From a virus, in IMG/VR virus record IMGVR_UViG_3300020186_000396, positions 36,669 through 100,668 of that record: a stretch of 64,000 nucleotides of DNA; one strand, given 5' to 3'. Position 1 is the first letter of the stretch. The number at the start of each line of letters is the position of its first letter. Both the position numbers and the translations under genes were made by a program. Under the pieces are notes generated by a model. That model saw only the letters and a program-made list of their open reading frames with translations. It ran no database searches and was not told where the DNA came from. This document shows, in pieces, positions 10,459 to 61,134 of this stretch.

Positions 10459-10632
10459 ATGTTACGTATGCTTCCAGATAATATTGACGAACAGATAGCG
10501 AAGTTACGTAAACGCAGAAGCGAGCTTGTTAAACAGATTTGGGATATTGAGAGCGATATCATTTGTTTGAGAGAAATTAAGCTGAAGCACGCAGAAGTCG
10601 AACGACTCAAAGGCGATGTCGAGCAAAAATAA
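10459..10632 (+). CDS. Small coiled-coil protein, 57 aa
   Basis: The frame MLRMLPDNIDEQIAKLRKRR and onward is an almost continuous charged helix with heptad-like Leu/Ile spacing, and it ends with DVEQK. A second ATG at 10468 is preceded by TATATGTTACGT, the motif seen before several other starts, and may be the true start (54 aa). Its 3' end overlaps the HU-like gene by 17 nt. Confidence 0.55.
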   Translation: MLRMLPDNIDEQIAKLRKRRSELVKQIWDIESDIICLREIKLKHAEVERLKGDVEQK

Positions 10633-10957
10633 AGCCTATGCCAAACTTATTAAACGTTTAGTAAGTATTGATAAGGATAAGTTTTGCCGAATGCTTGCTG
10701 CTAAAACTAATGTACCGTTTGATCATGTGTATGCGATTGTGAATCTATTGCTGGACGAAATGCAGAGAGAGTTTAGGAACGCACATTCTGTGAATGTTGT
10801 TAACTTTGGTAAATTCGAACTGATTCAACAGAAACCTAAAAAGATACTAAATATCAATACTGGTGCTCACCAAGTTGTCGAGCGCACGAAGCGATTGAAG
10901 TTTGTACTAGATCGCGCTCTTTCTTCTTTTATTTCTAAATTCGTAGATATGGAGTGA
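10616..10957 (+). CDS. HU/IHF family DNA-binding protein, 113 aa
   Basis: Residues about 20-105 fit the HU/IHF fold: two helices, then VNVVNFGKFELIQQKPKKIL with the NFGKFE turn, an arm region with NTGAHQVV in place of the usual NPxTGE, and a final helix after the KFVLDRAL strand. Such proteins bend and compact DNA. The canonical Pro at the arm tip is not evident, so intercalation may differ. It sits in the operon with the DksA-like and ClpP genes. Confidence 0.75.
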   Translation: MSSKNKAYAKLIKRLVSIDKDKFCRMLAAKTNVPFDHVYAIVNLLLDEMQREFRNAHSVNVVNFGKFELIQQKPKKILNINTGAHQVVERTKRLKFVLDRALSSFISKFVDME

Positions 10958-10959
10958 AC

Positions 10960-11391
10960 ATGGGACGTCGCGGACCTCGTCAAGTAGTTTTTGTTTGTAG
11001 CGCTGTTCTGAATAACAAGCTCGTCAGTGAAATGATTGAGCAGGAGACCTCAGATGAGGCGACAAAGCGTTTTGTTGCTAAGCACAACAGTAACCCCGAA
11101 TCGGTATTAGGACCATTCTATCGCAAGCGTACTGGCGTTCTATTGAACAATCAGGCTCAGGTTCGTTTTACAGGGAAGTCTCGCACTGCCGTATTTAACG
11201 AATGGTATGTAAAAGCGATGATTTTGGAGCTTCCGGAAGATTGCGTCTGGGTTTTCTTTGATGCCCGCGTTGACGGTAAGAAGCAGCCGAAACCGCAGTC
11301 TTTCATTATGAAAACTGAGGAAATCACCTTCCTTACTCAGGATGAGGAACTTAAATATAAAGCGATGATTACCGGACAAGTTTCCGTCTAA
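10960..11391 (+). CDS. Hypothetical protein, 143 aa
   Basis: Not recognised. I chose the ATG at 10960 because GGAG lies 5-8 nt upstream; an in-frame GTG at 10954 is possible. The sequence is basic at the N-terminus (MGRRGPRQVVFV) and contains beta-rich segments such as CVWVFFDARVDGKKQP. Its stop overlaps the next start (TAATG). Confidence 0.65.
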   Translation: MGRRGPRQVVFVCSAVLNNKLVSEMIEQETSDEATKRFVAKHNSNPESVLGPFYRKRTGVLLNNQAQVRFTGKSRTAVFNEWYVKAMILELPEDCVWVFFDARVDGKKQPKPQSFIMKTEEITFLTQDEELKYKAMITGQVSV

Positions 11392-11756
11392 TGGAAGATA
11401 TTATGAATAAAACCTTACTTAAAAAAGCGGAATCAATTCTTGAGGATCGCAAAACAAAGATTCTGTCCAAAACAAACATCAGTCTCGATATAGATATTGA
11501 AGGTGATGAGACAGACGAGATTCAGGGTAAAAATATTGCGTTGGTAAACAATCATATTCTTACACGAGATAAAGAGCGATTACACAAGATTGAAAGGGCG
11601 CTTACAAAGATCAAGGGCGGCACATTTGGAGATTGTGAAGACTGCGAAGAACCAATTGAGGAAAAAAGGCTTTTAGCCAATCCTGAATTTAGTATTTGTA
11701 TCTCTTGCGCATCCATGATCGAATTGAGAGCCAAGAGGTCAAGAGGGCATAATTGA
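11391..11756 (+). CDS. DksA/TraR-type zinc finger protein, 121 aa
   Basis: The C-terminal half carries the family signature: GTFGDCEDCEEPIEEKRLLA followed by NPEFSICISCA, giving a four-Cys zinc finger (CxxC...CxxC). DksA-like proteins enter the secondary channel of RNA polymerase and change initiation. The N-terminal coiled coil, with its DxxDA tip, is short and poorly conserved, so activity on polymerase is inferred from family alone. Phage-encoded members such as TraR can work without ppGpp. It directly precedes the ClpP pair. Confidence 0.85.
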   Translation: MEDIMNKTLLKKAESILEDRKTKILSKTNISLDIDIEGDETDEIQGKNIALVNNHILTRDKERLHKIERALTKIKGGTFGDCEDCEEPIEEKRLLANPEFSICISCASMIELRAKRSRGHN

Positions 11757-12337
11757 ACACGGTCATAACTGAAAAAACAGCTACTGGAGATATTTCATAC
11801 GATGTATTTTCAAAGTTAACGAACGACCGAATTATATTCCTATCGGATTATATTGATGATGAGGTTGCTACAGATATTGTAGCGACCTTGTTGTATTTGG
11901 ATAGCGTAGATCATACTGCCCAAATATCTATTTATCTTAATTCTGAAGGTGGCGATATTAGAAGTGTTTTCATGGTTTACGATGTTATCCAACTTTTGCG
12001 AGCACCAATTCAGACCATCTGTTTAGGTTCTGCTACGTTTGCGTCTGCAATCATTCTAGCTGCCGGTACTAAGGGCCTGCGTAGTGCTACAAAAAGTTCT
12101 GTCATATGCGTTAGTCAATTATCTTCTGACGGAGTAACGTACGGTGATATGACTGGAATCAGAATATCTTTCGAGCAGATGAAGAAAGATAATAAGAAAT
12201 TGATTGATATCATAGCTAAGCTTACCGGCAAAACCGCTGCTAAGGTCACTAAAGACTGTGAACGAAAATTATTTATGACTCCATTGCAAGCCAAAAAATA
12301 CGGTATCATCGACCGTGTGTTGGAATGGAATAAATGA
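11753..12337 (+). CDS. ClpP-like protein lacking the catalytic triad, 194 aa
   Basis: The fold is clearly ClpP: NDRIIFLSDYIDDEVATDIV, IYLNSEGGDIRS, and APIQTICLGSATFASAIILA. Compared with ClpP and with the next gene, the nucleophile Ser is Phe96, the His is Ser121 and the Asp is Lys172. It should therefore be inactive, like cyanobacterial and plastid ClpR subunits. It probably assembles with the active paralogue encoded immediately downstream. The start is a TTG at 11753 that overlaps the DksA stop, with AGAGGG upstream. The dead-subunit role is an inference. Confidence 0.85.
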   Translation: MNTVITEKTATGDISYDVFSKLTNDRIIFLSDYIDDEVATDIVATLLYLDSVDHTAQISIYLNSEGGDIRSVFMVYDVIQLLRAPIQTICLGSATFASAIILAAGTKGLRSATKSSVICVSQLSSDGVTYGDMTGIRISFEQMKKDNKKLIDIIAKLTGKTAAKVTKDCERKLFMTPLQAKKYGIIDRVLEWNK

Positions 12338-12930
12338 TTAAAAAACCGATAAAGAAAATGCAAGACCTAGAAGGGCTGAACTCATCATCTAGAAATCTAG
12401 AAATCTATTCAAGGTTAGCTAAGGATCGAATTATATTTCTAACAGAGGATGTTACAAAAGAAACAGGAAGTTCTCTTTCAGCTTTGCTTTTGTATTATGA
12501 CTCAGAGAATCACGATAAAGATATAAAAATTTACATCAACTGCAATGGTGGTGATGCTACAGCTTTATCTAATATCTATGACGTCATGCAAATGATAACT
12601 GCACCTATACAAACCGTATGTCTTGGTAAAGCTTATTCGGCTGCTGCTATTTTGCTTGCAGCTGGCGCTCCAGGTAAAAGGTTTGCCACGAAGCATTCTG
12701 ATATTATGATTCACGGAATACAAGCTCAGTTTCCGTTTACCGATAATGCAGATAAGATCGATTCAGAAATCGAAATGAAGATGCTTCAAGATCATAACGA
12801 TATGATTATGAAGATCCTTGCCAAGCATACAAAGAAAACGTTCAAGCAGGTTGCTAAGGACTGTGAACGAGATTTGTACATGGATGCCAAAGAGGCATTT
12901 GATTATGGGATGATCGACGGTGTGTTATGA
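12334..12930 (+). CDS. clpP: ClpP-like serine protease with intact triad, 198 aa
   Basis: This is a ClpP-family peptidase with Ser102 in LGKAYSAAAILLAAG, His127 in DIMIHG and Asp180 in CERDLYM, all at canonical positions. IKIYINCNGGDATA is the oxyanion/substrate-strand region. It would form the proteolytic barrel fed by a Clp ATPase; no ClpX or ClpA is seen in this window, so a host or distant phage unfoldase is expected. It overlaps its inactive paralogue by ATGA, which suggests stoichiometric synthesis of a mixed complex. Capsid maturation or degradation of host proteins are possible roles. Confidence 0.9.
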   Translation: MIKKPIKKMQDLEGLNSSSRNLEIYSRLAKDRIIFLTEDVTKETGSSLSALLLYYDSENHDKDIKIYINCNGGDATALSNIYDVMQMITAPIQTVCLGKAYSAAAILLAAGAPGKRFATKHSDIMIHGIQAQFPFTDNADKIDSEIEMKMLQDHNDMIMKILAKHTKKTFKQVAKDCERDLYMDAKEAFDYGMIDGVL

Positions 12931-15229: not shown

Positions 15230-15417
15230 TTCTATCGCAGGATCCATTAGTTCTAAGGTCACGATTCATAGCGTCACTTCCTAATGATCCTGATATGAGA
15301 TTAAAGTTCAATGACAAACTCATCACTGTGTTTGTTACTAGTCAAGAAAAGGCTAAATTGATACCATCTATTTTTGATAATTTCGTAGTTAGAGTAATTT
15401 GCATATTAGGCCACTGA
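15226..15417 (+). CDS. Hypothetical protein, 63 aa
   Basis: Not recognised. It is a small, compact alpha/beta protein with start and stop both overlapping neighbouring genes as ATGA or TGATG. It may be a small partner of the DUF192 protein that follows. Confidence 0.6.
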   Translation: MILSQDPLVLRSRFIASLPNDPDMRLKFNDKLITVFVTSQEKAKLIPSIFDNFVVRVICILGH

Positions 15418-15806
15418 TGAATTTACTTGTTATCGGAGAACGAACATTTCCAACTATACTTGCTATCACACCGATGGAACAAGCTCAAGGGTTAATGTAT
15501 GTTAAAGCTAATCCTCCGATCATGTCGTTTGTATATGATGAACCAGAAATGAATAAGATCTGGATGAAGAATACCTTTGTTCCTCTTGATGTCATCTTCT
15601 GTAGGGCCGGTAAGATCGTTGCAATCTCCAGAGGAGAACCGCACTCTGAGGATCTGTTCGGTCCCGACTATCCAACGGATCTGATAGTAGAGATGCCTGA
15701 AGGAAGTGTGGAAAAGTACGATATCTGCATCGGAAACGACGTAAGACTTAAGTACGACGTCGCTAGTTTCGGCAAAAAGCTGTCCGCAAGATATCTATTG
15801 ACGTAG
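15417..15806 (+). CDS. DUF192 family protein, 129 aa
   Basis: The family pattern is visible: MEQAQGLMYVKANPPIMSFV, then IWMKNTFVPLDVIFCRAGKI and VAISRGEP, matching ERxxGLM...WMKNTxxPLDIIFxD. DUF192 proteins are small beta-barrels with no settled function, often secreted in bacteria. This one has no signal peptide. The ATG at 15417 overlaps the previous stop. An upstream in-frame start would overlap the small gene further. Confidence 0.8.
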   Translation: MNLLVIGERTFPTILAITPMEQAQGLMYVKANPPIMSFVYDEPEMNKIWMKNTFVPLDVIFCRAGKIVAISRGEPHSEDLFGPDYPTDLIVEMPEGSVEKYDICIGNDVRLKYDVASFGKKLSARYLLT

Positions 15807-15864: not shown

Positions 15865-16917
15865 ATGCTCGATAGCGACTCCCTGATTGAAGCGGTCTCC
15901 AAAAACACTCCCGAGATTGAGGTCCTTAATCGCATTCTCTTCGGTTTAAAGATCCGCGCTAAGTGTACGGCTTATCGCCGCTGCCGCAACATCGACCTAT
16001 ATGACATCGTTCTTGGTGATGGCGCCCGAGTGCGTCAGATTGAGCGCTTCACACAGGAGATCGGTCTTAGCCTTCGTGCCAAGGCTCCGCCGATCGTTCG
16101 CCTCCTCCTTCAGGAGGGTATCGTTCGTCTTCAGGTGATCGCGACCGAGCCTGAGATCGTCGACTTTTGTGCTCGACGCAATGCGCTGCCTATGCCGAAG
16201 GCGTCTCTTCCATTCTATCTTGGAGAGACGCTCGACGACGGACCGCTTTGGCTCGACGTGCATACAGCACCGCACATTTTAGTTGCTGGAACTTCCGGTT
16301 CGGGCAAGAGCACGATCCTGCATTCTATCATCGGTAATGCGTTGTCGAATGATAACGTAGACATCTATCTGATGGATACGAAGAACATCGAATTCTCTTC
16401 GTACGCTGATCTCGAACGATATAACATCAATATCGATACGACGTATCAGGAGTGCCTGGAAACTCTCCAGAAGGTGTACCTCCAGATGGAGGAGACGTAC
16501 GTGATGATGCGCGTGAACGGATTGCCTAGCAATTACTTTGCCAATGCAAACTGTAAACATTCGTACAAGTTAATTGTGATTGATGAATTTGCTGATTTAA
16601 TCATGCAGGATAACAACGACGAGCTTCACGATTTGGTTTGCAAGATTGCTCAGAAAGGCCGCGCCGCTGGAATTCATTTTGTGCTTGCTACACAACGTCC
16701 TTCTGTCGAGATCCTGCGTGGTACAATCAAAGCTAACTTCCCCACTCGCATTTCCTGCCGAGTTGCGTCTCGCGTAGATTCCAATGTTATTATCGACAGC
16801 CCCCAAGCTCACGCTCTACTTGGCAAAGGTGATGCGCTGATTAAGTCAGCTACGCATGACCTTGTTAGATTTCAGGCGGCGTACGCGACTGCCGAAGCAA
16901 ATATCGAGAACACATGA
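15865..16917 (+). CDS. FtsK/SpoIIIE-like DNA translocase ATPase, 350 aa
   Basis: Residues about 136-150 contain HILVAGTSGSGKST (Walker A). A Walker B stretch YKLIVIDEFADLI lies near 235, followed by the FtsK-type GRAAGIHFVLATQRPS region and IKANFPTRISCRVASRVDS. That order is typical of the FtsK motor domain, which pumps double-stranded DNA. It lacks the membrane segments and gamma domain of bacterial FtsK. It is separate from the terminase at 58222, so it may serve DNA segregation, nucleoid-like compartment transport or conjugation-like transfer rather than packaging. Confidence 0.85.
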   Translation: MLDSDSLIEAVSKNTPEIEVLNRILFGLKIRAKCTAYRRCRNIDLYDIVLGDGARVRQIERFTQEIGLSLRAKAPPIVRLLLQEGIVRLQVIATEPEIVDFCARRNALPMPKASLPFYLGETLDDGPLWLDVHTAPHILVAGTSGSGKSTILHSIIGNALSNDNVDIYLMDTKNIEFSSYADLERYNINIDTTYQECLETLQKVYLQMEETYVMMRVNGLPSNYFANANCKHSYKLIVIDEFADLIMQDNNDELHDLVCKIAQKGRAAGIHFVLATQRPSVEILRGTIKANFPTRISCRVASRVDSNVIIDSPQAHALLGKGDALIKSATHDLVRFQAAYATAEANIENT

Positions 16918-19089: not shown

Positions 19090-20829
19090 ATGAAAACTTT
19101 AGTAATTGTGGAATCGCCAGCAAAAGGTAAAACGATTTCCAAATACCTCGGCCCTGATTATACAGTCATCGCTTGTTATGGTCACGTCGTTGACCTTGCT
19201 AAAGGTGGGAAGTTCGGTATCGGTGTAGATTTACTAAATAATCTAGCTCCTCGATACATGATTATGGATGATAAGAAAGAAGTTTTCGACAAGATCGTTA
19301 ACGCTAGTGAGACATGCGATCAGATTTATCTCGCATCCGACCCTGATCGTGAAGGTGAAGCTATTGCTCAGCATTTGTTCACGCGTTTGGCGTCGACTGG
19401 AAAACCAATTAAGCGTATTGCATTCCATGAAATAACAAAGACCGAAATCCTTAAAGCCGTTGCAGCGCCACGTGACATCGATTTGAAATTGTTTAAGGCA
19501 CAGCAGGCTCGCCGCATTCTTGATCGCCTCGTTGGATTTATGGTGTCGCCATTTTTGATGAACGTGTTCGGTCAGACCATGTCAGCCGGGCGAGTTCAAT
19601 CAGTAGCGGTTCGCATGATTGCCGATCGTGAAATCGCAATAAAGAATTTCGTGCCGGTTGAGTTTTGGAATGTATTTGCAGACCTGACCACACCAGCTGG
19701 CGAAAAGATGCGCGTCAAGTATGCCACGGCATTAGGTAACAAGGCCGATACCGATGCGGTCCTGGCAAAGCTTACAGGGCATCCGTTTGTGGTCAGCGCT
19801 GTCATTCGCAAGCCTAAGAAGGAAAGTCCACCGCCACCGCTGACAACCCTAATGATGCAACAGATCATGTCTAAGAAACATGGGTTCAGCGCCGAACAAA
19901 CGATGCAGGCTGCACAAGCGTGTTATGAAAGCGGGTATACGACTTACATTAGAACCGACTCTGTTAGACTCGGCGACGATGCTGTAAAATCCATTCGACA
20001 ATACATCAAAACAACCGGATACTCGCTACCAGCCAAGGCTATAGTTTATGAGTGCAAGACTACCGCCGCTGACAGCCATGAAGCTATTCGTTGTACGAAC
20101 GTCAACACTGATCCGGCAACGTGCATGCTTACCGGTAACGATAAAATTCTGTACGACGTAATCTGGAGATATTCCGTGGCTTGCCAAATGGAACAGGCCG
20201 TGTTCGATACGATGGAAGTACAAGTTACTTGTAATGGCGAACTGTTTAAGATTACTGGTAAAACACTTTCTACTAAAGGATTTTTCGAAGTCCTAGGCCT
20301 TCCTCCGAAGGATAAGTTCGATATTCCTAACCTTAATAAAGGCGATTCATTTACCTTGAATAAGGTCGTGCCAGAACAAAAAGCAACTCAGCATCCGCCT
20401 CGTTTTACAGAAGCTAACTTGATCAAAGAGCTTGATGCAAGACAGATCGGCCGCTCATCTACGATGGCAACTATTCTGAAAAACATCAACGCTCGCAATT
20501 ACGTTGTCAAGAATGGTAATACGTATCATCCGACCGACCTAGGACTTCAAGTAACGGCAATGCTAAACAAATCGTTTGGATTTGTTAATTTTGATTACTC
20601 AGCCGCTATGGAAGCTAATCTTGATAAGATTGCGGCCGGTGAAGCCGATTACGATACTGTTATGACTGAGTTCTTTTCTTTATTCTCTAAAGAATTGAAG
20701 TCAGCAATAAACGGCGAGAATAAGATATGTTGTGAACGGTGTAATGGAATAATGGTAGAGCGTGATGGTTCTCGCGGTAAATTCCTATCATGTGCAGGTT
20801 GCAGAAACAGTCAGAACATTGCGGCGTGA
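19090..20829 (+). CDS. topA: DNA topoisomerase I (type IA), 579 aa
   Basis: The TOPRIM domain starts LVIVESPAKGKTISKYLG and has DPDREGEAIAQHL. The strand-passage domain holds FHEITKTEI and the catalytic Tyr286 in GYTTYIRTDS. The family landmarks SAGRVQSVAVRMI and LIKELDARQIGRSSTMATIL follow. Only one C-terminal zinc ribbon is present (CERCNGIM...CAGC), against three to five in E. coli TopA, so the enzyme is a shortened form. It relaxes negative supercoils by single-strand passage. The start at 19090 follows an AAGGA sequence. Confidence 0.95.
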   Translation: MKTLVIVESPAKGKTISKYLGPDYTVIACYGHVVDLAKGGKFGIGVDLLNNLAPRYMIMDDKKEVFDKIVNASETCDQIYLASDPDREGEAIAQHLFTRLASTGKPIKRIAFHEITKTEILKAVAAPRDIDLKLFKAQQARRILDRLVGFMVSPFLMNVFGQTMSAGRVQSVAVRMIADREIAIKNFVPVEFWNVFADLTTPAGEKMRVKYATALGNKADTDAVLAKLTGHPFVVSAVIRKPKKESPPPPLTTLMMQQIMSKKHGFSAEQTMQAAQACYESGYTTYIRTDSVRLGDDAVKSIRQYIKTTGYSLPAKAIVYECKTTAADSHEAIRCTNVNTDPATCMLTGNDKILYDVIWRYSVACQMEQAVFDTMEVQVTCNGELFKITGKTLSTKGFFEVLGLPPKDKFDIPNLNKGDSFTLNKVVPEQKATQHPPRFTEANLIKELDARQIGRSSTMATILKNINARNYVVKNGNTYHPTDLGLQVTAMLNKSFGFVNFDYSAAMEANLDKIAAGEADYDTVMTEFFSLFSKELKSAINGENKICCERCNGIMVERDGSRGKFLSCAGCRNSQNIAA

Positions 20830-34922: not shown

Positions 34923-36224
34923 ATGAATTTTGAAGTCAAAGAATTAGAATATTGTCGCGTCTCAGTTCATGCCGAGATCGAATCAGACCGCATCAATGAA
35001 AAACGCATTGAAGTAATCTCTGAGTTTAAGAAACTTCCGGTGCCAGGTTTTCGTCCAGGTCGAGCATCTCTTGATGCAATTAAGCACAAGTACAAGGCAC
35101 AAATTGAAGCGCGACTTCGCGAAGCTCTTGCAGAAGATGCATTCCACGGAGCTTTGAACGAGAAGGGCCTTCGCCCGTTGGGAAACCCAGAATTTTCGTC
35201 TGTGACGCTTGGTAAGCGTCAGATGATTGTCCTGGAATCTACCTCAGTACCAAACAACGAAGATGTATTTACTTGTGACTTCGTATTGAATACGAAACCT
35301 GAAATTACGTTGACCGAGTATAGGGATTTTTCTTTACCAAAGCCATCCGCTGGAATCGGTGTAAGTGAATTTGCCGAAAGCATTCTTCAAGATTTACGTG
35401 AACGCAACGGAGATACCGTGCCGTTTGGAGATGACGATTTTATTTCGAATGGTGATTCAGCAATTATCGATTATACCGGAACGATCGATTGTCTGGTTCG
35501 TCCAGAACTAACGGCAAAGAAAGAGGTAATCACAATCGGAAGTTCTCCATTCCCTCAGTTTGATGAAAACCTTTTGGGAATGAAACTAGGTGATGTAAGG
35601 CAATTTGATATCGTCGCCCCTGAGAAAGCCGCGAAAGAATATATTGGAAAGACAATATCGTTCAACGTTTCTTTGGCGATGGGTTCAAAGAAAAATCCAG
35701 CTCCATTGGATGACGAGCTTGCAAAGCGCATGAGTTTCGAGAATCTCGAAGCATTGCGGACGCACGTAAATACCGTCGCCGCTGCTCGTGTAGATAAGCA
35801 TGAGAAGGCCGCCCTCGCTCAGCAGGTGGCAGCTCGTCTAGTTGAGAAGCATGAATTTAAGATTCCTACGTGGATCACTACGGCGGAAGCTCAGATGAAC
35901 GCGAAGCGTGCCAAGCTTACCTGGGATGAGCTTACAGACGAACGTAAAGAAGAGATTATCGCAACGGCAGATAAAAGCGTGAGGCTTTCACTTGTTCTTG
36001 AAAAGATCCGGGATAAAGAAGCCGAGGCGCAATTGTCTGATGAAGAACTTGAGTTTCATCTTCAACAAGAATTGGTGAAGATTTCAAAAGCCACATCTCA
36101 GGAAGATGTCGACAGGATGCTTCAGCAGCTGACTCAGAGCGGAATGCTACCGATATTGGTAGGCAAAATTCGTGATGAATATACTTTGAGTTTTCTAGTG
36201 AAAACTTGCACAGTTGTTGAATAA
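34923..36224 (+). CDS. tig: Trigger factor, ribosome-associated chaperone/prolyl isomerase, 433 aa
   Basis: The N-terminal ribosome-docking loop is PVPGFRPGRA near residues 38-47 (family GFRxGKxP). The FKBP-like domain lies near 170-250 (SAIIDYTGTI...GMKLGDVRQFDI), and the C-terminal helical arms make up the rest. Full length equals E. coli Tig (432 aa), so no domain is missing. It binds near uL23 at the exit tunnel and shields nascent chains. Trigger factor genes are unusual in phages. The ATG at 34923 has GGAG 9 nt upstream. Confidence 0.9.
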   Translation: MNFEVKELEYCRVSVHAEIESDRINEKRIEVISEFKKLPVPGFRPGRASLDAIKHKYKAQIEARLREALAEDAFHGALNEKGLRPLGNPEFSSVTLGKRQMIVLESTSVPNNEDVFTCDFVLNTKPEITLTEYRDFSLPKPSAGIGVSEFAESILQDLRERNGDTVPFGDDDFISNGDSAIIDYTGTIDCLVRPELTAKKEVITIGSSPFPQFDENLLGMKLGDVRQFDIVAPEKAAKEYIGKTISFNVSLAMGSKKNPAPLDDELAKRMSFENLEALRTHVNTVAAARVDKHEKAALAQQVAARLVEKHEFKIPTWITTAEAQMNAKRAKLTWDELTDERKEEIIATADKSVRLSLVLEKIRDKEAEAQLSDEELEFHLQQELVKISKATSQEDVDRMLQQLTQSGMLPILVGKIRDEYTLSFLVKTCTVVE

Positions 36225-55488: not shown

Positions 55489-56223
55489 ATGAGGTTACCG
55501 GAGCTATTACAGATACTGTACTCAATACATAAGAACCAACCAAACATTGGCGTTCCTTATATTTGTGGCGGTATCCCACGTGACAAGCTTATTGGTAATG
55601 CTAAAAGTAAATATAACGATTTAGATATCACTACCGGAAACGCCTCTGTCCGATTTTTGGCCGAAGAGTTTTCTAATTTGATGGATAAGCAGTTTCAAAT
55701 CAAGAAGAAAGTAGCTCAAGATGGGCACGTCTCGGTAGAACTAGCAAACCTTAAAGTTGATTTTTCGTCAAATTTTATTGTGCCTGGCATCGACGATCTT
55801 CTTAAGGCAAGGGGCCTTGAAAACGTAACCGATCTACAAAGAGAGATGTTTAGCAGAGATTTTACATGCAACTCTCTTTTATTAAATCTCAATCTTAAAG
55901 ATATATTCGACCCTACTCATTTGGGAGTAGAGGATATCGGTAAAAAAATTGTAAAGACTTGTCTAGACCCACAATCAACTTTTGCTCATAACGTTCAGAG
56001 AATACCGAGAGTTTATTATATCTCAGCTAAACTTGGTTTTGAAGTCGATGCAGAAATTATAGACTGGATAAAGAAGAACGGCGCGGTGTTCCGAACTGTT
56101 AAGCCTGAATACAGTCTAGAAAAAATATCAAAAGCTATGGAATACGACCAGGCTCGCACGATTGCTTTATTGGATGCAACGAACGGATGGGAATTCGTAC
56201 CTGGCCTTAAGGCAGGGATTTAA
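55489..56223 (+). CDS. Poly(A) polymerase/CCA-adding-type nucleotidyltransferase head domain, 244 aa
   Basis: YICGGIPRDKLIG near residue 24, then NDLDITTGN with the DxD pair near 40, give the class II nucleotidyltransferase head. LKVDFSSN with the third Asp follows, then REMFSRDFTCNSLLLNLN and DPTHLGVEDI. The protein ends after the neck; the tail domain of bacterial CCA enzymes (about 400 aa) is missing. It could mature the phage tRNA-Arg, which lacks an encoded CCA, or tag RNA. It lies among structural genes. Confidence 0.8.
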   Translation: MRLPELLQILYSIHKNQPNIGVPYICGGIPRDKLIGNAKSKYNDLDITTGNASVRFLAEEFSNLMDKQFQIKKKVAQDGHVSVELANLKVDFSSNFIVPGIDDLLKARGLENVTDLQREMFSRDFTCNSLLLNLNLKDIFDPTHLGVEDIGKKIVKTCLDPQSTFAHNVQRIPRVYYISAKLGFEVDAEIIDWIKKNGAVFRTVKPEYSLEKISKAMEYDQARTIALLDATNGWEFVPGLKAGI

Positions 56224-58221: not shown

Positions 58222-61134
58222 GTGAGTGCAGACTTATTTAATAAACTACGTTCGAATCTGCTTAGCTTAGACCCTGTCTATTTTTGTGAAAACTATCTAA
58301 CGCTTGAAGGAAAGCCGTTCCGTCTAACCAACAATGGCTATAAACCTTTTGCAGATATTTATCGATACATAGCAATCAAGGCACTAGAAAGAGACTCTAA
58401 GCCGGTAGTTATTATCAAGGGCCGCCAGGTCGGAGCCACTACGATGTGCTCGGCTTTGGAAATGTATTTCATGGGTTGTGGATTGTTCGGAAACACCGAC
58501 CGCCCAGCGATGAGAATCATTCACGCGTTCCCTCAATTGGACCTGGCATACGCCTATTCCAAAACCAAACTGAACCCGATGATTTCAGGTGCCCTTGCAC
58601 TTGAGCCAGCGAAAAAGGGACAGAAGTCACGCTCGTATATGCAGGCGTTACTTGATCCTACCAGCCCTGCAAACGACTCTCTTAACTTCAAACAATTCGT
58701 CGGTGGTAATCACCTTTGGATTGAGTCGACCGGAGAAACAGCAGACAGGCTCCGTGGACGTTCGGCAGACGTTATTTTTTATGACGAATGCTTAACGTAC
58801 GACACTTACATTGAAACTGTCGACGGTAAAATTGCGATAGGCAAGCTGGTGCAAAATTACGAGGCGGGCAAGTATGTTCCGCTCATCAAGACGTTTAACG
58901 AACAGCAGGAAAATTTTGAATACAAACAAGTTGTAAACGTATGGAGTAGAGGTGATCGAGACGTTCTACAAATTCAATGTGGAAAAAGAAAAGTTAAGTG
59001 CACGCCAAATCACCCGTTTTTAACGAATGACGGATGGAAACGCGCAGATGAATTGAGCGTCGGTAGTTTAATAAAAACATCTGTAGGCACTGATTTACAT
59101 AATAGAGCGCTAAACGACGACCAGTACCAAGTTGTTTTAGGGTCATTTTTGGGGGACGGGAACGTCTCTTCTTATAAAGACAAGCGTTCACGATTGCGCA
59201 TCATTCACGGAGAATCTCAAAAAGAGTATTGTGAGTGGAAAGCCTCTCTCTTTGGCCGCGATTGTGAAAGACTCGAAGAGAACGGTTTTAGTAAAAAACC
59301 AGCATACAGATTCGCGACGAAGAGTTTTGCGCTGCCGAAATCTTTCCCTAAGTCTAAAACAAACTGCCCGCAGTGGGTTCTTGATGATTTGGATGCACGA
59401 GGCATTGCCGTATGGTTTATGGACGATGGTAACGTAGTAAAAAAGTGGAACTCAGGAGTGGCGACGAGGCTATCTACGTGCTCTTTCGATCTAGATACGC
59501 AAGAGCGTATAGTAAGAAAATTTGCAACGCTAGGTATAGATTCGCATTACGCAAAGTACAACGGGTACACTTACATTCATTTTAATAAGGATGGCTCGAA
59601 TAAGTTATTCGATCTTATAAGTCCGTATATTCATAAATCGATGACATACAAAACGACTAATTCTAGTTGTAGCTATGTATGGAATACATCGTTCAAACAG
59701 TTCGGTTATGAAGTGGTAGATTCGATTTCTTCGATGTCTAAGCCGGAAAATGTTTACGATATTGAAGTAATAGACAATCACAATTTTATTGTAACACCAG
59801 GGCGTAAGAGCAAAAACGTTGGCGGATTAATCACCCATAATTGCCAAGACATTCCGAAACAAGCAATTGGAAACGCATCCAAGATCTTGGCGAAGGCTCG
59901 GTACGGTCGTAACGGAGAAGGCGTTCAAGTATTTTTCGGCACACCAAAGCAGCGTGGTTCCGAATTTTTCGATATGTGGCAGCAGTCATCGCAGCAGTAT
60001 TTCAATCTGCACTGCGAACAATGTGACAAGTACTATCCGCTGTATACGCCAGGTTCTGATCAATGGGAAGAGACTTGGGTTCATACCAATACAGTCCGCT
60101 GTCCATTCTGCAAACACGAGCAAGATAAGGTCCATGCTGCCGAGACTGGTAAGTGGGTCGCAACACGCGATCCCGATGAGTGTCCATTTATCGGATTTCA
60201 TATGAGCCAGTTGTTCATACCGGATTTCACAAAAGAGAAGATCATCTCTGAAAAACCAGAGAACTCATTGGTTAACAGCGAGCGTGCTTATCAAAATGAA
60301 GTTTTAGGAGAGTTCTTCAGCGGCGAAACTGGAATCATGAATCCAGAAGATGTCCGCGAGAAGTGTGGAGACATTGGTCGCAAATTCCGGGCACACATAG
60401 CACCCAATCAAGAACACGGAGTATTCATCGGTGTAGACATTGGACAGAAGAGTGACCTTGAACAGCTGGTCGACTCTAAGAAAAAGAAAGTACAGGGCCA
60501 AAGCTATAGTTGCGCTGTAGTTCTTAGTTTAGTAGGACCGAACCTTCTTCAAATAGAGTTCGCTAGAAAATTCAAGCACAACGACTTCGCTAGCAAGAAG
60601 GCCGAAGTAGAACATTTGATGCGCATGTATAGCGCTAACGTAACGGTATGCGATATCGGATTCTCCAACGATTTTTGTGAATTGATGCACAACGAACACG
60701 GAGAAAAATTCATAGCTTCGAATGCCGTTGCTAGAATTACAGACCATATCAAATACAACAAAGAGGTGTATCCTAAAACAATATACTTCGAACGAGATTA
60801 CTACATCGGCGAACTGTATGACCAAATGAAAAAGGGTCAAATACGATTCCCGTATGGAAGTTACGAGCTTATGAGTTGGCTGGTGCAGCATTGTACAAGC
60901 ATGGAAATCAAACCATCCATTTCTCGAACCGGAGAAGTAACGCCGCACTATGCAAAAGGAAGTCAACCGAACGACGGATTCATGGCACTGTTGAATGCCT
61001 ACATAGCTTATCGCTGGTATCAAACAAAGGGTTTCACAATAAAGAACCCATTACTTTTTAATAATCCGTTTGATAAGCATCGACCAAAGCAGAGGATTCC
61101 AGCGATCTTGGGCGTCGTCGGTAGAATGAAGTAA
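58222..61134 (+). CDS. Terminase large subunit with intein, 970 aa precursor
   Basis: The packaging ATPase motifs are KGRQVGATT (Walker A-like) near residues 67-75 and VIFYDE (Walker B) at 184-189. The nuclease domain begins GVFIGVDIGQKSD near residue 735, with later acidic residues in VCDIGF. An intein (residues 190-540) splits the Walker B DE from CQDIP; splicing gives a mature protein of 619 aa. The enzyme cuts concatemers and pumps DNA into the capsid. The start is a GTG at 58222 with GAAGGCGG upstream. The portal gene lies just downstream. Confidence 0.92.
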   Translation: MSADLFNKLRSNLLSLDPVYFCENYLTLEGKPFRLTNNGYKPFADIYRYIAIKALERDSKPVVIIKGRQVGATTMCSALEMYFMGCGLFGNTDRPAMRIIHAFPQLDLAYAYSKTKLNPMISGALALEPAKKGQKSRSYMQALLDPTSPANDSLNFKQFVGGNHLWIESTGETADRLRGRSADVIFYDECLTYDTYIETVDGKIAIGKLVQNYEAGKYVPLIKTFNEQQENFEYKQVVNVWSRGDRDVLQIQCGKRKVKCTPNHPFLTNDGWKRADELSVGSLIKTSVGTDLHNRALNDDQYQVVLGSFLGDGNVSSYKDKRSRLRIIHGESQKEYCEWKASLFGRDCERLEENGFSKKPAYRFATKSFALPKSFPKSKTNCPQWVLDDLDARGIAVWFMDDGNVVKKWNSGVATRLSTCSFDLDTQERIVRKFATLGIDSHYAKYNGYTYIHFNKDGSNKLFDLISPYIHKSMTYKTTNSSCSYVWNTSFKQFGYEVVDSISSMSKPENVYDIEVIDNHNFIVTPGRKSKNVGGLITHNCQDIPKQAIGNASKILAKARYGRNGEGVQVFFGTPKQRGSEFFDMWQQSSQQYFNLHCEQCDKYYPLYTPGSDQWEETWVHTNTVRCPFCKHEQDKVHAAETGKWVATRDPDECPFIGFHMSQLFIPDFTKEKIISEKPENSLVNSERAYQNEVLGEFFSGETGIMNPEDVREKCGDIGRKFRAHIAPNQEHGVFIGVDIGQKSDLEQLVDSKKKKVQGQSYSCAVVLSLVGPNLLQIEFARKFKHNDFASKKAEVEHLMRMYSANVTVCDIGFSNDFCELMHNEHGEKFIASNAVARITDHIKYNKEVYPKTIYFERDYYIGELYDQMKKGQIRFPYGSYELMSWLVQHCTSMEIKPSISRTGEVTPHYAKGSQPNDGFMALLNAYIAYRWYQTKGFTIKNPLLFNNPFDKHRPKQRIPAILGVVGRMK
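58789..59841 (+). other. Intein with LAGLIDADG-type homing endonuclease inside terminase
   Basis: The element is 351 residues, from Cys1 (CLTYDTYIETVDGKIAIGKL) to the terminal HN before Cys+1 (ITHN then CQDIP). Blocks A and B are present (VKCTPNHPFLT, with the TxxH-type segment). Two DOD endonuclease motifs appear, LGSFLGDGNVSSY and GIAVWFMDDGNV, and blocks F and G (YDIEVIDNHNFIV, GGLITHN). It is inserted directly after the Walker B acidic pair, a site where ATPase function depends on splicing. Confidence 0.95.

Follow-up and report, generated by a model that had tools for sequence, protein, structure and literature searches.

Two overlapping ClpP genes in a phage, the first (R) without any of the three catalytic residues and the second (P) with all of them, probably encode the two kinds of subunit of a single hetero-oligomeric Clp peptidase made by the phage, a reading based on sequence comparisons to which we give a probability of about 0.68. 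The genes lie in a linear virus record of 100,668 bp (IMG/VR entry IMGVR_UViG_3300020186_000396, here G000), of which bases 36,669 to 100,668 form the window analysed, a stretch of 64,000 nucleotides; coordinates below are those of the window. The window also encodes a terminase large subunit, a DnaE-type polymerase, a UvsX-like recombinase, SbcC/SbcD, a topoisomerase, an FtsK-like ATPase and trigger factor, and this gene content identifies the virus as a phage. Pairs of dead and live ClpP subunits have been described for cyanobacteria, plastids and apicoplasts, and the phage pair would be an independent viral instance. Relatives with a single ClpP gene at the same locus make the purpose of a dead Clp subunit testable, and with it the splitting of a homomeric machine into two specialised subunits. 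The pair further suggests that the chamber of the peptidase comes from the giant phage and the motor does not, which would be a defined means of taking control of host proteolysis.

Tandem ClpP genes and their operon

The genes of the locus are listed with their Pfam matches and, for the neighbours, their occurrence among relatives.

10616–10957 (+), HU-like DNA-binding protein gene (PF00216, E=3.4e-13; 18/19 relatives)
11391–11756 (+), DksA/TraR-type zinc-finger gene, directly 5′ of R (PF01258, E=2.5e-10)
11753–12337 (+), R, dead ClpP paralogue, 194 aa, TTG start (PF00574, E=6.9e-50)
12334–12337 (+), ATGA overlap of R stop and P start, seen in the sequence; probable translational coupling
12334–12930 (+), P, live ClpP paralogue, 198 aa, ATG start (PF00574, E=2.2e-55)
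15399–15806 (+), DUF192 gene, downstream neighbour (PF02643; 19/19 relatives)
15865–16917 (+), FtsK/SpoIIIE-like ATPase gene, downstream neighbour (PF01580, E=4.5e-32; 18/19 relatives)
19090–20829 (+), type IA topoisomerase gene, downstream neighbour (PF01131, E=3e-105; 18/19 relatives)

The preliminary description had placed a tandem ClpP pair with an ATGA overlap at 11753–12930, and both open reading frames are present there. R and P match the Pfam CLP_protease family (PF00574; ClpP peptidase family, MEROPS S14) over nearly the entire length of the domain, with E-values showing that the resemblance to ClpP is not due to chance; the identity between the two proteins is 41%. At the positions aligned with Ser97, His122 and Asp171 of E. 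coli ClpP (mature numbering), R carries Phe96, Ser121 and Lys172 and P carries Ser102, His127 and Asp180; the absence of the triad from R and its presence in P, as first described, are thus read directly in the alignment. AlphaFold2 models of R (mean pLDDT 85.3) and P (87.0) both have the ClpP fold, again as described, and the PDB structures closest to them are ClpP chains (TM 0.93 for R and 0.83 for P). R therefore retains the fold with all three catalytic residues gone, and is a ClpR in the sense of a ClpP homologue without the triad.

The gene order of the operon is HU-DksA-R-P-DUF192-FtsK-topoisomerase; FtsK/SpoIIIE-like ATPases belong to a DNA-translocase family and are not Clp ATPases. 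The stop codon of the DksA-like gene overlaps the TTG start of R (TTGA, 11753–11756), and this gene lies upstream of the pair in all 19 relatives compared and is also found in relatives with a single ClpP. The distance from the R stop to the P start is mostly between -4 and +13 (30 relatives). R starts with TTG in the window and in 26 of 30 distinct relatives, the others having GTG (two) or ATG (two), and P starts with ATG in the window and in all 30. The conserved weak start of R, behind a purine-rich stretch resembling a ribosome-binding site, could tune the stoichiometry of R to P.

Conservation and origin of the pair

Relatives were collected from IMG/VR in scans with P alone, with an R alignment and with a P alignment, yielding 38 contigs. 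In 37 of these, a dead ClpP gene stands immediately before a live one, and the order never varies. Contigs with the pair range up to 481 kb, and include others of 447, 452 and 473 kb; the window record, too, probably represents part of a genome several hundred kb long. In every one of the 37 the triad is absent from R, and P has Ser, His and either Asp or Glu. R of the relatives has Asp, Asn, Lys, Phe or Tyr at the Ser position, Ser, Thr, Gly, Asn or Asp at the His position, and mostly Arg or Lys, never the acid, at the Asp position. No R without an adjacent P was found in the contigs from these scans. The catalytic acid of P is Glu and not Asp in 9 of 30 distinct P sequences (including L034, L038, L040–L043, L046 and L049), and R of the window lacks Glu98, which the other 30 R sequences have.

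Close R pairs gave dN/dS values of 0.05–0.22 where dS could be estimated, with P in a similar range, and 27 columns are invariant across 21 R sequences. For the preliminary description, a pseudogene in the place of R in related phages would have counted against its reading; the opposite was seen, an intact and constrained tandem of dead R and live P in 37 further contigs. Covariation was compared among eight operon genes of 17 phages, with the other six genes regressed out for each pair. The partial correlation of R and P distances was 0.67, the highest of the 28 operon gene pairs, a ranking to which no significance test was applied. This value fits physical association of R and P and is not proof of it, as paralogues in one operon share constraint.

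When GTDB genomes were scanned with the R alignment, nothing but ordinary ClpPs came up, none of them more than 42% identical. The 87 that were read, from 80 bacterial loci, comprised 81 SHD and six SHN sequences, and none lacked Ser or His; a bacterial source of R was rejected on these grounds. No close relative was found in deposited phage genomes, where the best match was 46% identical.

In the phylogeny, R sequences form one clade and P sequences another (SH-aLRT 99 and 99), with broadly mirrored branching. Together with two syntenic single-copy ClpPs they form a clade (support 100) that excludes the ClpPs of cells and of other phages. The single-copy genes come from relatives G026 and G027, each of which has one ClpP with Ser and His present (the acid being Asp or Asn) between the DksA-like and DUF192 genes; the DnaE of G026 is 51% identical to that of the window. 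These two sequences branch outside R and P, and not inside P, and support for R and P as sisters is only 88–89. The single ClpP of G026 and G027 likely represents the state before duplication. The simplest reading of the tree would be one phage ClpP, a tandem duplication and a later loss of catalysis in R; secondary loss of R from the single-copy phages is less likely. The preliminary description had likened the pair to the ClpR/ClpP complexes of cyanobacteria and plastids. The likeness holds for the working principle; descent from cyanobacterial ClpR finds no support in our tree, which contains no ClpR sequences and in which R groups with phage P and the single-copy phage ClpPs. This grouping suggests that the viral dead/live pair is of independent origin and, as it appears, not derived from cyanobacterial or plastid ClpR. 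No ClpR-named structure was present among the best 60 PDB matches.

Proposed division of gate and catalysis, and probable source of the unfoldase

The N-terminal segment of canonical ClpP forms the axial gate. Cellular ClpPs share E8, T10, G13 and D18 in this segment (E. coli mature numbering). R of the window has kept it (LNTVITEKTATGDISYDV), and among 30 R sequences E8 is present in 30, T10 in 28, G13 in 29 and D18 in 29. P has almost entirely lost E8 and G13, and its start is variable and often His-rich. R begins directly at the mature ClpP N-terminus, and P has a variable N-terminal extension. In the AlphaFold2 model of R the segment forms an N-terminal hairpin (strands 4–9 and 12–17), at a pLDDT there of only about 60; in that of P, residues 1–15 are disordered and followed by a helix, with no hairpin. 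The single ClpP of G027 has both the gate segment and the catalytic Ser and His. Since R keeps the gate and P keeps catalysis, each duplicate has kept what the other has lost. Altered gating, proposed for the pair from the outset, is strengthened because the canonical gate segment is kept in R only.

Two further regions of the ClpP surface were compared. In the ring-ring handle motif, GG..GQA, G130 is present in 87 of 87 cellular ClpPs, and R and P carry two different conserved replacements; divergence of this kind would be expected for a chamber in which an R ring contacts a P ring. The cleft at which unfoldases dock has partly changed, Tyr62 of R being replaced by Phe in 27 of 30 sequences and Phe82 by Met or Leu in both R and P, which makes docking of a host ATPase uncertain. 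With both subunits partly altered, the cleft does not indicate which ring meets the ATPase.

The preliminary description had seen no Clp ATPase near the pair. A search for Clp-type ATPases (PF07724) found none anywhere in the 100,668-bp record, and the observation extends to nearly all relatives. In 25 of these no clear Clp ATPase was found, PF07724 giving only weak matches of 18–30 bits; the matches were rejected as Clp ATPases, being mostly a conserved MoxR-like AAA protein of about 373 aa and not ClpX, ClpA or ClpC. This protein was not found in G000. PF10431 had no match in 14 of 15 records. The same PF07724 search finds strong Clp ATPases in other huge phages, showing that it works; the contigs are possibly incomplete, and a phage ATPase could lie outside the sequenced part. 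Among seven further records, one (G031, L252 1971–4214) has the sole clear example, a ClpA/ClpB-like ATPase of 748 aa with two AAA domains, in which no obvious docking tripeptide of the IGF/IGL type was found. The MoxR-like protein of another relative (G006, L059 142–2319) carries an intein-like insert at Walker A, giving a frame of 726 aa as against about 373 aa elsewhere.

Because a Clp ATPase is missing from nearly all these phages, a host unfoldase is the most likely motor, and probably powers the R/P chamber; this is the weakest link of the proposal. The record encodes a chaperone together with R and P but no Clp unfoldase: a trigger factor gene with N- and C-terminal domains lies at 34923–36224 (+), and Trigger_N was found in 13 of 13 relatives tested.

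The sequence comparisons strongly support a tandem duplication of one phage ClpP gene that held a constant place in the operon; R then lost its three catalytic residues and kept the N-terminal gate segment, and P kept Ser-His-Asp/Glu and lost the gate segment. Both copies have remained under strong purifying selection and have always been inherited together. In line with the mixed phage protease of the preliminary description, we propose that the products assemble into one chamber, in the simplest case a heptameric ring of R stacked on one of P, although mixed rings are possible. R would supply the entrance gate and the side facing the unfoldase, P the cutting sites, and the non-canonical handle motifs of both would favour R–P over R–R or P–P stacking. 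With less confidence, we suggest that a host unfoldase (ClpX, ClpA or ClpC) feeds the chamber, since Clp-type ATPase genes are all but absent from these phages, and that host proteolysis is diverted in this way during infection. The full proposal, that a gated non-catalytic R ring which arose by tandem duplication and complementary loss recruits the host unfoldase and redirects host ATP-dependent proteolysis to substrates chosen by the phage, is plausible but tentative.

Alternative readings and related systems

Retention of the gate segment in an R that starts at the mature N-terminus could also mean that R is a decoy or poison, entering host ClpP rings or occupying host ClpX or ClpA through that segment, with P acting as a separate peptidase. 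Such a role would suit phages without a Clp ATPase of their own, and R looks like an ordinary bacterial ClpP in profile searches. We consider it unlikely: R is never found without P beside it and covaries most with P, its handle motif, the would-be contact with a host ring, has diverged, and P lacks the gate that R would complement.

Somewhat less probable still is a function in head maturation, with P as a prohead protease that processes proteins of the capsid or scaffold and R as its partner in a structural or scaffolding capacity. ClpP-fold head-maturation proteases (PHROG phrog_94, 133 and 1684) have the same fold and detectable profile similarity, P matches profiles of this annotation (phrog_94, E=1.3e-29), and a search of 11 records for an S78 prohead protease gave no match; the search for S77 (T4-type, PF03420) was made without a positive control and carries no weight. 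Nonetheless P matches cellular ClpP (PF00574, 2e-55) much more strongly than it does the profiles of head proteases, and the pair is placed in the HU-to-topoisomerase operon about 46 kb from the terminase gene (58222), not beside portal or terminase. In relative G025 the portal gene adjoins the terminase gene, far from the pair, and the operon content places the pair next to neither portal nor major capsid genes. The gate segment of R would have no clear use inside a capsid.

R and P could in principle be two independent homo-oligomers, R being a structural or binding protein unrelated to proteolysis by P. The sequence data alone do not show contact between R and P, and ClpR and ClpP of Plasmodium falciparum form separate homoheptamers whose complex is hard to isolate (PMC7966870). 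The strict pairing and order of the genes, their near-zero spacing, the top covariation within the operon and the complementary losses make this reading very improbable. That R is merely a decaying pseudogene copy of P, as the loss of all three catalytic residues might suggest, is ruled out by its full-length intact frame in 38 contigs, its low dN/dS and its 27 invariant columns.

Taken as two subunits of one peptidase, R and P would have their closest functional counterparts among known systems in the ClpP/ClpR cores that cyanobacteria, plastids and apicoplasts possess. In the cyanobacterial ClpP3/ClpR and plastid ClpP/ClpR cores a triad-less ClpP homologue is paired with catalytic subunits (PMC7966870). 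The common feature would be a mixed core of dead and live subunits. The phage differs in encoding no ClpC-type partner, in that the gate segment is missing from the live subunit and not from the dead one, and in the grouping of R with other phage ClpPs (in the tree without ClpR sequences). The P. falciparum apicoplast has one dead ClpR, which lacks a prodomain, and one live ClpP, which is processed (PMC7966870). The start of phage R at the mature N-terminus and the variable N-terminal extension of phage P resemble this arrangement, which belongs to a eukaryotic organelle of another lineage with its own ClpC and not to a phage operon.

Bacterial ClpP1/ClpP2 hetero-tetradecamers, in which two paralogues have distinct roles, occur in Mycobacterium tuberculosis, Pseudomonas aeruginosa and Chlamydia. 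They share with the phage pair the presence of two ClpP paralogues, and M. tuberculosis ClpP1P2 chains are the best fold match of both models; as they top the R and P lists alike, the ranking of nearest structures was set aside as a discriminator. The sampled actinobacterial pairs (for example L197 and L234) differ from the phage pair in keeping Ser and His in both copies.

Other jumbo and huge phages (Lak phages, Atu_ph07, LR756502 and others) also encode ClpP, in some genomes in two or three copies. Their clear copies keep the triad, lie far apart and fall on other branches of the tree, and these named genomes also encode a Clp-type ATPase, in contrast to the window record and nearly all its relatives. 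A dead/live tandem was sought in LR756502, LR745206, LR756504, Phosso and EJP2; each has up to three ClpPs, the clear ones have an intact triad and none is in tandem. The 634–642 kb phages LR756502, LR745206 and LR756504 contain two or three dispersed intact ClpPs and a Clp-type ATPase (L004–L006, L016–L018, L021 and L022). A review of jumbo phages mentions ClpP, ClpS, ClpA and ClpX (PMC7824862), and no description of a phage ClpP/ClpR dead/live pair was found in the open-access literature searched.

Two other genes of the window were recorded. A tRNA nucleotidyltransferase-like gene is located at 55489–56223 (+). The terminase large subunit gene at 58222–61134 (+) contains an intein-like insert with a match to LAGLIDADG homing endonucleases at residues ~299–479; in most relatives the terminase large subunit is uninterrupted and 625–634 aa long.
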